Source: a virus. From it: a DNA stretch of 30,255 bases. Location: positions 1 to 30,255 of IMG/VR virus record IMGVR_UViG_3300017917_004106; one strand, written 5' to 3'. Numbering within the stretch: position 1 is the first letter of the stretch; each line of letters begins with the position of its first letter. Under the pieces are notes generated by a model, which was not told the origin of the DNA, did not search any database, and saw nothing but the letters and a program-made list of their open reading frames with translations. A program made the translations under genes and the position numbers. Positions 3,149 through 23,017 of the stretch are shown in pieces.

Positions 3149-3481
3149 ATGGCCTTCTTCGATTCAGAAATAGTTCAGAAAGAACTAAAGAGTATTGAGA
3201 AACTTCAAAGGGAACTTACAAGGAGCGTCTTGAGGTTTCCTATTATGTCCAAGGCAGAAAAACTTGAGCATGTGAATTTGCTATCTGAATTATTAGAGAA
3301 ACAAAAAATCCTGTATACAAGATTGAGTTTGTCTGATGACCCCCAAGCAATTGAAAAGAAGAATGAAATTATTGCAGCATCAAAAATGATTGGTTATGGG
3401 GACCCATCAAACATGAATGTGGTGTTTGATAACATGCAAAGAGTAATCCAGAGACTCAAGCGTGAAGCAGAGGTTGACTAA
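3149..3481 (+). CDS. DUF1825-like protein, as found in cyanobacteria
   Basis: A 110-aa protein beginning MAFFDSEIVQKE, which I recognise as the hallmark N-terminus of the cyanobacterial DUF1825 family. The rest is predicted helical and coiled: IEKLQRELTRSV, KAEKLEHVNLLSELLEKQ, then MIGYGDPSNMNVVFDNMQRV, which resembles the family's C-terminal GMTPQQMFDQM-type helix. The function is unknown in both hosts and phages. It sits between gp59 and gp32 in the replication block, and its stop lies inside the terminator hairpin that ends this transcription unit. The shared N-terminus suggests exchange between phage and cyanobacterial host. What it does cannot be read from the sequence; a helical adaptor binding a host protein is only a guess. 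Confidence 0.8.
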   Translation: MAFFDSEIVQKELKSIEKLQRELTRSVLRFPIMSKAEKLEHVNLLSELLEKQKILYTRLSLSDDPQAIEKKNEIIAASKMIGYGDPSNMNVVFDNMQRVIQRLKREAEVD

Positions 3482-3494
3482 GACCTCTTTTTTT
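3469..3494 (+). terminator. Rho-independent terminator ending the thyX-DUF1825 unit
   Basis: AGAGGT (3469-3474) pairs with ACCTCT (3483-3488) around an 8-nt loop, followed by a T run (3488-3494). The stem contains the end of the upstream gene and its stop codon. The loop contains most of the -35 box of the gp32 promoter. Confidence 0.75.
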
Positions 3495-3502
3495 GCTATG
3501 AT
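3474..3502 (+). promoter_or_regulatory. Sigma70-like promoter of gp32 with extended -10
   Basis: TTGACT (3474-3479) is a five-of-six match to the -35 consensus. After exactly 17 nt comes TATGAT (3497-3502), five of six to TATAAT, preceded by TGC, which makes an extended -10 element. The start of transcription is expected near 3509, giving a leader of about 42 nt before gp32. This looks like a host-polymerase (early or middle) promoter rather than a T4-type late one. Confidence 0.75.
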
Positions 3503-3512
3503 GTCTTTGGAT

Positions 3513-3539
3513 AATCAATCCAATTAATCCAACTAATCC
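3513..3539 (+). repeat. Three phased 9-nt direct repeats in the gp32 leader
   Basis: AATCAATCC, AATTAATCC and AACTAATCC follow one another without gaps and run straight into the Shine-Dalgarno GAGG (3540-3543) 7 nt before ATG 3551. The consensus is AAYYAATCC. The stretch contains no G and cannot fold into a stem by itself. T4 gp32 represses its own translation by cooperative binding to an unstructured leader, so this is a candidate autoregulatory operator. The repeats are seen; the role is inferred. Confidence 0.65.
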
Positions 3540-3550
3540 GAGGTAATCTA

Positions 3551-4465
3551 ATGTCTTTTACAGACCTTAAAAAGAAATCTTCTCTTGGTTCTCTTACGTC
3601 CAAACTGGTACAAGAGGTTGAGAAGATGAACTCTACTGGTGGTTCTTCAGATGAACGTCTGTGGAAACCAGAAGTAGACAAAGCAGGAAATGGATTTGCA
3701 GTCATTCGTTTCCTTTCTGCCCCACAAGGGGAAGACCTTCCATGGGCAAAGGTCTATACCCATGCCTTCCAAGGTCCTGGTGGATGGTTTATTGATAACT
3801 GTCTGACCACAATCAATCAGAACTGCCCTGTCTGTGAAGCAAATAGGGAACTGTGGAACACAGGTAGCAAAGCAAATCAAGATATTGTTCGTGATCGTAA
3901 GCGCAAACTGTCTTACTATTCCAACATCTATGTTGTTCAGGATAAATCTCATCCTGAAAATGAAGGAAAAGTATTCCTTTATAAGTATGGTAAGAAAATC
4001 TTTGACAAGATTATGGCTGCTATGAAGCCTGAGTTTGATGATGAAACTCCTATCAATCCTTTTGATTTTTGGGCTGGTGCTAACTTCAAGGTAAAAATTA
4101 CCAAGAAGGATGGTTACTGGAACTATGATAAGTCAAAGTTTGGTAATCCTGAACCACTCTTTGATGATGATGATGCTATGGAAGCAATCTGGAAGAAGAC
4201 ATATTCTCTTGCAGAGTTTACTGATGCAGAGAAGATGAAGACCTATGAACAACTTGATGCTCGTCTGAAAGCTGTTCTTGGTAAGAAGACTGCTGCCCCT
4301 GTTGATGAATCTTTTGATGATGAAGATGAGGATCGTGGACCTGTTCCTACTGCTGAAGAGGTTGTACAGGGAAAGTCTGGTGGAACTCGTACACCAAATC
4401 GTTCATCCAGTTTTGATGATGAAGATGATGCTCTGAGTTACTTCCAGAAGTTGGCTGAGGAATGA
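3551..4465 (+). CDS. 32: gp32 single-stranded DNA-binding protein
   Basis: A 304-aa homologue of T4 gp32 (301 aa), the ssDNA-binding protein of replication and recombination. The basic N-terminus (SFTDLKKKSSLGSLTSKL) corresponds to the cooperativity domain. The zinc site is complete: H71 in VYTHAFQG, C84 in FIDNCLTT, and C92 and C95 in NCPVCEANR, the same arrangement as T4 H64/C77/C87/C90. The OB-fold core continues to about 245 (KVKITKKDGYW, WKKTYSLAEFTD). The C-terminal third is acidic and low in complexity (SFDDEDED, SSFDDEDDALS), as in the T4 protein-interaction tail that contacts gp59 and others. It has its own promoter, a repeat-bearing leader and a strong terminator, so it can be made in excess of its neighbours. 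Confidence 0.97.
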   Translation: MSFTDLKKKSSLGSLTSKLVQEVEKMNSTGGSSDERLWKPEVDKAGNGFAVIRFLSAPQGEDLPWAKVYTHAFQGPGGWFIDNCLTTINQNCPVCEANRELWNTGSKANQDIVRDRKRKLSYYSNIYVVQDKSHPENEGKVFLYKYGKKIFDKIMAAMKPEFDDETPINPFDFWAGANFKVKITKKDGYWNYDKSKFGNPEPLFDDDDAMEAIWKKTYSLAEFTDAEKMKTYEQLDARLKAVLGKKTAAPVDESFDDEDEDRGPVPTAEEVVQGKSGGTRTPNRSSSFDDEDDALSYFQKLAEE

Positions 4466-4472
4466 TTATTGG

Positions 4473-4500
4473 AGGAGAGGAATTATTTCCTCTCCTTTTT
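4473..4500 (+). terminator. Rho-independent terminator after gp32
   Basis: AGGAGAGGAA (4473-4482) pairs over 10 bp with TTCCTCTCCT (4487-4496) around a TTAT loop and runs into five Ts. It starts 8 nt after the gp32 stop and separates the replication block from the fiber genes. Confidence 0.88.
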
Positions 4501-4544: not shown

Positions 4545-5747
4545 ATGTCTAAACAGCAAATATTTCCAGGAAGTTCTCCTAATGATGGAACTGGAGATAC
4601 CTTATATCAAGGGGCTCTTAAAATTAATAGTAATTTTAATGAAATTTATACGACTTTTGGTGATGGTACAAATTTATACAATGTCACTGGACCTCAAGGA
4701 GCAATAGGACCTCAAGGTGCTCAGGGGTCACAAGGGTCACAAGGTTTTCAGGGATCTCAAGGATCTCAAGGATCACAAGGTTTTCAAGGGTCACAAGGTT
4801 CTCAAGGATCGCAAGGACTCCAAGGACCTCAGGGTGCTCAAGGCAATCAAGGATCTCAAGGTATTGTAGGACCTCAAGGTGCTCAAGGTCTTCAGGGGAT
4901 AGTAGGACCTCAGGGTTCTCAAGGAGTTGGTGGTCCACAAGGATTTCTAGGTCCACAAGGATCACAAGGTTTTCAAGGAATTCCTGGATCAAATGGAAGT
5001 AGTACACATCAATGGACTACTACACCTGTAGGAATTCATACACTTTCTAATGTTGGTATTGGGACCACAAATTCAACCAGTGAACTTACAGTAAAAGGTA
5101 ATGTATCAGTTTCTGGTGTCTCTACATTCAGTAATAATTTTAATATTGATAATAGTATTATTGAATTAAGTCATACTGTTGCTGTTAGGAGTGCAGCTTC
5201 TGGAAATCTTACTGCGTATTTTGATGAATCTGGTACAGCAACTTTATTACATGAGAATATTCCCAAATTAATAACAACAAATGAAGGATTAGATATTCTT
5301 GGAACAGCAAGTGTTACTAATAATATTGATGTTTCTGAATTAACAACAACAAGAGATCTTTATGTAACTGGTGTTTCTACATTCACTGGTGCTGTAAGTT
5401 TTGGTACTTCTGTTTATTTTGGTGTTAATACTGGATTTGGAACATTTAGTGCAACATCTGGGATATCTACTGATATAGATACTTTAGTAATTAATACTTC
5501 AAACTTCAAAACTATTGAATATACTTTTCATTTTATGAATGGAAATAATATTCAATCTCAAAAAGTTCTTGTGATGCAAAATGGAACCACTGCATATTCT
5601 CAAGAGTATGCAATAATGTCTGATCCTAATTTAATAGTTTCAATTGGATCTACAATTTCTAGTGGAGTTTTAAAAATACAAGCAACACCTGATCCAGGTA
5701 TATCTGGACTAACAACCTACAGATTCTTAAGAGGAGGACTATTGTAA
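4545..5747 (+). CDS. Collagen-like virion/tail fiber protein
   Basis: A 400-aa structural protein. Residues 1-48 (SPNDGTGDTLYQGALKIN, then NFNEIY..FGDG) form an N-terminal attachment module that I recognise from cyanophage structural proteins. About 35 uninterrupted G-X-Y triplets follow (residues 49-153), mostly GPQ, GSQ, GAQ and GFQ, which should fold as a collagen triple helix. The remainder is beta-rich with fiber motifs NVGIGTTNSTSELTVKGN and two SGVSTF/TGVSTF repeats, and a C-terminal domain ending RFLRGGLL. It is followed one base later by the subtilase gene. Gln at the Y position is typical of prokaryotic or phage collagens, which lack hydroxyproline. It is probably a homotrimeric fiber or whisker. 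The exact place in the virion is not known, and no chaperone domain is visible. Confidence 0.85.
   Translation: MSKQQIFPGSSPNDGTGDTLYQGALKINSNFNEIYTTFGDGTNLYNVTGPQGAIGPQGAQGSQGSQGFQGSQGSQGSQGFQGSQGSQGSQGLQGPQGAQGNQGSQGIVGPQGAQGLQGIVGPQGSQGVGGPQGFLGPQGSQGFQGIPGSNGSSTHQWTTTPVGIHTLSNVGIGTTNSTSELTVKGNVSVSGVSTFSNNFNIDNSIIELSHTVAVRSAASGNLTAYFDESGTATLLHENIPKLITTNEGLDILGTASVTNNIDVSELTTTRDLYVTGVSTFTGAVSFGTSVYFGVNTGFGTFSATSGISTDIDTLVINTSNFKTIEYTFHFMNGNNIQSQKVLVMQNGTTAYSQEYAIMSDPNLIVSIGSTISSGVLKIQATPDPGISGLTTYRFLRGGLL
4689..5005 (+). repeat. Collagen-encoding 9-nt-multiple repeat tract
   Basis: Low-complexity direct repeats of units such as GGATCTCAA, GGTTTTCAA and GGTGCTCAA encode the G-X-Q triplets. 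The near-identical codons make this tract prone to slippage or recombination, so copy number probably varies between relatives. Confidence 0.8.
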
Positions 5748-22871: not shown

Positions 22872-22874
22872 CTT

Positions 22875-22947
22875 GGCGGTGTAGCCCAGCGGAAGAGGCA
22901 AACGACTTAAAATCGTTCAAGGGTGAGTTCGAATCTCACCACCGCTA
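22875..22947 (+). tRNA. tRNA-Leu (anticodon UAA), short variable arm
   Basis: Full cloverleaf. Acceptor GGCGGTG (22875-22881) with CACCGCT (22940-22946), with G-T at the end pair. D stem GCC/GGC. Anticodon stem AACGA/TCGTT with loop CTTAAAA, giving anticodon UAA (22908-22910). T arm GTGAG-TTCGAAT-CTCAC. A73 follows as discriminator, which fits leucine. CCA is not encoded. The variable loop is only CAAGG (five bases), whereas bacterial tRNA-Leu normally has a long extra arm. It would read UUA, a frequent codon in this AT-rich genome. Confidence 0.92.
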
Positions 22948-23017
22948 TTTCAAAATTGACTTTTAATTCCAAAAATCCCCTCGAAAAATTTTCAGGCAAA
23001 AAATGACTGTAGGGTTT

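Follow-up and report, generated by a model that had tools for sequence, protein, structure and literature searches.

How gp32, a single-stranded DNA binding protein that is indifferent to sequence, selects its own message has been described as unclear (PMC535899), and the study of diverse relatives has been called for (PMC3014915). This question is raised by the viral DNA analysed here (IMG/VR record IMGVR_UViG_3300017917_004106, positions 1 to 30,255; the window, 30,255 nucleotides in length), in which gp32 is preceded by a tandem repeat. A preliminary description, made from the letters alone, had proposed this repeat as an autoregulatory operator. We therefore asked what the array consists of, whether it is maintained in relatives, and what may read it.

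A phased array of words before gp32

The gene downstream of the repeats had been taken for gp32, and profile matches to Pfam PF08804 (E 1.8e-48, residues 46-242) and PHROG 224 (E 9e-120) confirm this. As judged from its sequence, the protein has both the nucleic-acid-binding core and the N-terminal cooperativity motif, the latter as KKKSS at residues 7-11, which resembles the LAST motif described for T4 gp32 (PMC535899). The features surrounding its start are collected in Table 1.

Table 1. Features at and around the gp32 gene of the window.
Feature	Coordinates	Strand	Remarks
Terminator-like inverted repeat, AGAGGT-TGACTAAG-ACCTCT and T run	3469..3488	+	Terminator-like scan, 7 pairs
Predicted sigma70-type promoter, TTGACT-N17-TATGAT	3474..3502	+	10/12 consensus matches; TG before -10
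Repeat unit 1, AATCAATCC	3513..3521	+	Word AATCC at 3517-3521
Repeat unit 2, AATTAATCC	3522..3530	+	Word AATCC at 3526-3530
Repeat unit 3, AACTAATCC	3531..3539	+	Word AATCC at 3535-3539
Shine-Dalgarno-like GAGG	3540..3543	+	Directly 3' of unit 3
Fourth word, AATCT	3545..3549	+	Between Shine-Dalgarno and ATG (3551); offset 10 nt from word 3
gp32, single-stranded DNA binding protein	3551..4465	+	304 aa; Pfam PF08804, PHROG 224
Terminator-like hairpin	4471..4498	+	Terminator-like scan, 12 pairs; directly after gp32

As first described, three 9-mers follow each other in exact phase, lack G and run into GAGG. The span originally given, 3509-3551, needs correction, as the array begins at 3513. The sequence after GAGG, TAATCTA followed by the gp32 ATG, holds an additional word. 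Tandem Repeats Finder reports the array with period 9, 3.0 copies and a score of 40, as one of 38 rows in the window; since several of these score similarly or higher, the score is unremarkable by itself. Lag-9 self-matches of at least 16/18 occur at two places in the window, the leader array and a collagen-like coding repeat near 4746, and in none of 200 dinucleotide-preserving shuffled windows, and the chance expectation for AATCC-N4-AATCC is 0.11 per window. The repeat array before gp32 is confirmed as real, and is not a local oddity. A coding or leader-peptide origin of the 9-nt period was rejected, as the spacing varies from 8 to 10 nt and the units contain TAA; no listed plus-strand ORF of at least 60 aa covers the array. 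The gene at 4545-5747, whose product combines collagen-like repeats with an N-terminus similar to T4 gp9/10, is 9-nt periodic in its DNA for coding reasons.

Consensus prediction places the transcription start at about 3508-3510, that is, at about -42, so that the predicted leader is some 40 nt long and almost wholly made of repeats. With this promoter just upstream and a terminator-like hairpin right after the gene, the predicted mRNA carries gp32 alone, and a leader this short, with the array at its 5' end, would leave no room for a pseudoknot of the T4 type. The upstream hairpin lies at the end of a DUF1825 gene (3149-3481) and overlaps the -35 box; this overlapping stretch (3469-3502) may hold a terminator, an operator or a read-through hairpin. 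In relatives, the inverted repeats around -35 or -10 vary, with 17% above the 95% level of shuffles, and one relative (L157) has a 13-bp perfect stem around -10. Further upstream of DUF1825, which was identified by profile match and for which uvsY was rejected, are gp59, the late-transcription coactivator, a PD-(D/E)XK nuclease and PhoH, an arrangement much like that in the annotations of DSL-LC03, Syn30 and similar cyanophages. The only Rfam match in the window was a tRNA, and the window has a tRNA-Leu gene (anticodon TAA) at 22874-22948.

Conservation, anchoring and gene specificity

We compared 317 gp32 leaders from IMG/VR and phage records, reduced to 159 non-redundant leaders differing by more than 14%. 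First, copies of the word AUMC or AUCU number 3.25 per leader, compared with 1.21 in shuffles, and 276 of 358 successive spacings are of 9-10 nt (177 at 9 nt and 99 at 10 nt), compared with about four at each distance in shuffled leaders. Lag-9 and lag-10 identity give z-scores of 21.7 and 11.0, which measure regularity rather than independent events, as the leaders share ancestry and shuffle statistics overstate independence. Absence or loss of phase in all relatives had been named as what would speak against the proposed operator, and we found the opposite, a conserved and phased array across the sampled cyanophage leaders. The AAYYAATCC consensus suggested earlier proved too broad: the word does recur, and what is kept is AAUCY or AAUAC, with a free spacer of 4-5 nt.

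Second, words and spacers evolve differently. In 19 leaders picked for ending in AATCCGAGGTAATCY, an end that is invariant by this choice, the second-last word is nearly invariant as well, while the spacers between upstream words vary freely. Spacers within a leader are no more alike than those of different leaders (0.46 versus 0.49), and two identical adjacent spacers were found in 0 of 25 leaders. Since spacers are not duplicated within leaders, the words are maintained by selection rather than recently copied, and an origin by slippage was rejected. Third, after AAT-type starts the third base is either C or A, depending on the lineage (AAUCC versus AAUAC), with an agreement among the words of one leader of 0.87, compared with 0.50 by chance, and at least 6 changes of type on the gp32 tree, compared with 54 expected with shuffled labels. 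Thus, more than one word of a leader took part in each switch, which is what a single reader of all of them would lead one to expect, although common ancestry accounts for some of the agreement. The leaders of more distant marine T4-like phages (L358-L437) have AUACAA words, spaced mostly 4-12 nt apart without a strict 9-nt register, and a strict 9-nt period as a universal property of T4-like phages was rejected on this basis.

The array is set by the start codon and not by the promoter. A promoter-like site (at least 9/12) is present in 145 of the 159 leaders, compared with 20% of mononucleotide shuffles, and its -10 end typically lies 41-47 nt before the ATG. The commonest arrangement, with only 1-2 nt between the end of the last word and the ATG, is seen in 94 of 122 leaders (sd 2.8), whereas the distance from -10 to the first word is scattered (sd 9.0). 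A recognisable Shine-Dalgarno is absent in 44/159 leaders, in which the words persist and an ordinary spacer takes its place; intact arrays of this kind are found in L029, L034, L045, L054, L080 and L096.

The claim that the leader is unstructured holds for the family, with an unpaired probability of 0.757, compared with 0.706 for the leaders' own shuffles and 0.555 for other ORF starts, and less strictly for the window, whose predicted fold contains a weak helix of 4 bp (GGAU/AUCC, 3509-3512 with 3518-3521) and joins the Shine-Dalgarno GAGGU (3540-3544) to ACCUU in codons 5-6 (3564-3568). Tandem short words in an unstructured stretch over the ribosome site are found at the initiation region of gene 32. 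Relatives with AGGT in the leader tend to have ACCT early in the gene (odds ratio 5.4, p 1.6e-4, with kinship ignored). The gp32 of the window retains, by alignment, the complete set of four zinc ligands of the T4 protein (His, Cys, CPVC), and a simple pattern finds the full set missing in 129/159 relatives, such as Syn9, P-SSM2 and Bellamy; a dependence of the array on the zinc site was rejected, as words are present with and without the Cys ligands.

Among the ORF starts scanned in three sequences, chains of at least three words are limited to gp32. They occur at one of 211 ORF starts in a 181-kb relative and at one of 210 in SynMITS9220M01, both nearly complete genomes, and at one of 27 in the window, in each case that of gp32. 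A scan of IMG/VR for AATCC-H4-AATCC-H4-AATCC matched at least 119 stretches; among the matches listed, 41 lead into a gp32 start by BLAST, L522 is an additional gp32 case whose gene is cut by the contig end, and most of the remaining ones lie inside long ORFs or in arrays of near-identical units. A recurrent exception (L537:1196-1218 and L622:5534-5556) consists of period-9 AATCC arrays that, in two contigs, abut the start codon of one and the same cysteine-rich ORF of 77 aa, the PHROG matches of which are families of unknown function. Other AATCC-N4-AATCC sites of relatives, tried as further candidates, were rejected, since many of them look like collagen-like coding repeats in spacer and strand, and the one site that was read (G012:9677) is inside an ORF.

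A candidate gp32 operator and its alternatives

Based on these results, we consider the array at 3513-3549 to be, with moderate confidence, a translational leader operator of gene 32 that apparently lacks a pseudoknot and whose words would nucleate a gp32 filament and set its register over the start site. Autoregulation by gp32 is suggested by the gene specificity of the array, its anchoring to the AUG and its openness, together with the precedent of T4 and RB69 (PMC535899). Transcription from the promoter just upstream would yield a short, open, G-poor leader with four AAUCY words, 9-10 nt apart, running through the Shine-Dalgarno up to the AUG. With more gp32 present than single-stranded DNA can take up, several monomers would load side by side, presumably one per word, cover the ribosome site and turn translation off; exposed single-stranded DNA would then draw gp32 away and restore translation. 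The repeated word would thus take over the role of the T4 pseudoknot in providing specificity and register.

Some observations fit this operator less well. The repeat had been likened in size to one gp32 binding unit, a comparison that is loose, since T4 gp32 covers 7 nt of DNA per monomer (PMC7826291, PMC10484735), regardless of sequence (PMC7826291), and the period here is 9-10 nt; the site of cyanophage gp32 may be larger, or its bound monomers may be spaced. Specific reading of a pentanucleotide would be unusual for a single-stranded DNA binding protein, and the distant marine T4-like leaders keep AUAC words at loose spacing. In the literature searched, we found no report of binding or repression for a cyanophage gp32.

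Leaders without a Shine-Dalgarno pose a further difficulty, as they need another means of ribosome recruitment, which the words could supply. This keeps alive the main rival, which we regard as unlikely, namely, that the array is an initiation enhancer read by the ribosome, in which an open, G-poor leader recruits S1 or the 30S subunit and no repression takes place. The openness of the leaders agrees with it. In one version of this explanation, AUCC could pair with the GGAU located just 5' of the anti-Shine-Dalgarno in 16S rRNA, the end of which is GGAUCACCUCC, and GAGGUAAUCC could then act as an extended Shine-Dalgarno; by inspection, it matches the complement of this textbook end at 9/10 positions. 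However, the AUAC words of many leaders do not pair with that end, upstream words are too distant from the AUG for such pairing, and a fixed word every 9-10 nt calls for more than openness. Moreover, an enhancer would be expected to be common to many well-expressed phage genes, and the array is found at no other ORF start in the two nearly complete genomes.

That the array is a translational operator with a different RNA-binding protein as its reader, for instance phage RegA or one from the host, is in our view quite improbable. The concerted words and the anchoring to the AUG are features of a reader site, whichever the reader, and cyanomyoviruses do carry regA (PMC2984593). However, RegA represses many messages in a general manner (PMC3014915), whereas the array precedes a single gene, and it stays with gp32 in contigs that differ upstream of the promoter. 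Still less probable is an element acting at the level of DNA, be it an operator, an iteron-like repeat or a replication site. The array does lie close downstream of a strong predicted promoter, at about +5 to +40, and some relatives have inverted repeats around -35 or -10; against this, its position is tied to the AUG rather than to the promoter, the last word falls between the Shine-Dalgarno and the AUG, a spacing of 8-10 bp loses helical phase, and every word is in mRNA orientation. Finally, a functionless tandem duplication or low-complexity stretch, suggested by the fact that 9-nt repeats are not rare in the window, is excluded in practice by conservation across the family, to which the uncopied spacers, the different evolution of words and spacers, and the 0/200 shuffled windows add.

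It is possible, if not quite probable, that a broader rule applies, by which the gp32 of cyanophages and T4-like relatives is guided to its own mRNA by a word that is particular to each lineage and recurs at the spacing of filament subunits, with no pseudoknot in cyanophages and with a code word that diverges along with the protein. The words would be UUAAA in T4, ACUGU in some other Straboviridae, AUAC in marine T4-like phages and AAUCC in cyanophages, and a nominally sequence-independent single-stranded DNA binding protein would then read a periodic linear code. The hundreds of natural leader variants, which belong to phages abundant in the ocean, retain a single word and a single spacing against a drifting background, and they include cases in which nature has exchanged the word or lost the Shine-Dalgarno; with these, the question of gp32 self-recognition becomes directly testable.

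Comparison with known gene 32 leaders and other repressors

A gp32 leader with repeated words is, as such, already known from T4. As far as the literature searched shows, in which we found no paper on cyanophage gp32 leaders, what is new is the word itself (AAUCC/AAUAC), its 9-10 nt register, its presence between Shine-Dalgarno and AUG, the seeming absence of a pseudoknot and the wide distribution among cyanophages.

The T4 operator consists of a pseudoknot for nucleation and of UUAAA/UAAA repeats along which gp32 spreads, both of which are essential (PMC535899, PMC3014915). These repeats occupy the same place as the cyanophage array and are themselves essential for autogenous repression (PMC535899). 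Thus, the two leaders share the gene, the position, and tandem, short, A-rich words in an unstructured stretch over the ribosome site. They differ in the word, UUAAA/UAAA in T4 and AAUCY/AAUAC in cyanophages, where UUAAA was not found as the repeated word; in the period, 4-5 nt in T4, with TTAA words at -31, -27, -22 and -17, compared with 9-10 nt; and in that the cyanophage leader has an extra word between Shine-Dalgarno and AUG, is short and starts from its own predicted promoter, and has no conserved 5' pseudoknot that we could see. Inverted repeats at -105 to -42 of relatives showed no shared structure, the transcript start at about -42 being a prediction. The earlier suggestion that, with no pseudoknot visible, the mechanism would differ from that of T4 therefore stands for nucleation only, as none is conserved and the predicted start is near the first word, and does not extend to the repeated words, which T4 also has. 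The cyanophage leader may accordingly be viewed as the second part of the T4 operator, made more regular, without the first part in the predicted transcript.

Among other relatives, RB69 gp32 has been shown to repress its own synthesis (PMC535899); its leader has a pseudoknot and a word different from that of cyanophages. Several leaders of Straboviridae (T4-like) repeat ACTGT at a 10-nt spacing. The RB49 gene 32 leader resembles that of cyanophages in that a pseudoknot is not reported; according to one account its UUAA(A) units are kept (PMC535899), whereas according to another it lacks the A+U-rich stretch too (PMC3014915), and its autoregulation, like that of T4 relatives without a pseudoknot, is stated to be unknown (PMC535899). 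Lastly, M13 gp5 is also a single-stranded DNA binding protein that acts as a translational repressor (PMC535899), although it is another protein and its target, gene 2 mRNA, is the message of another gene.
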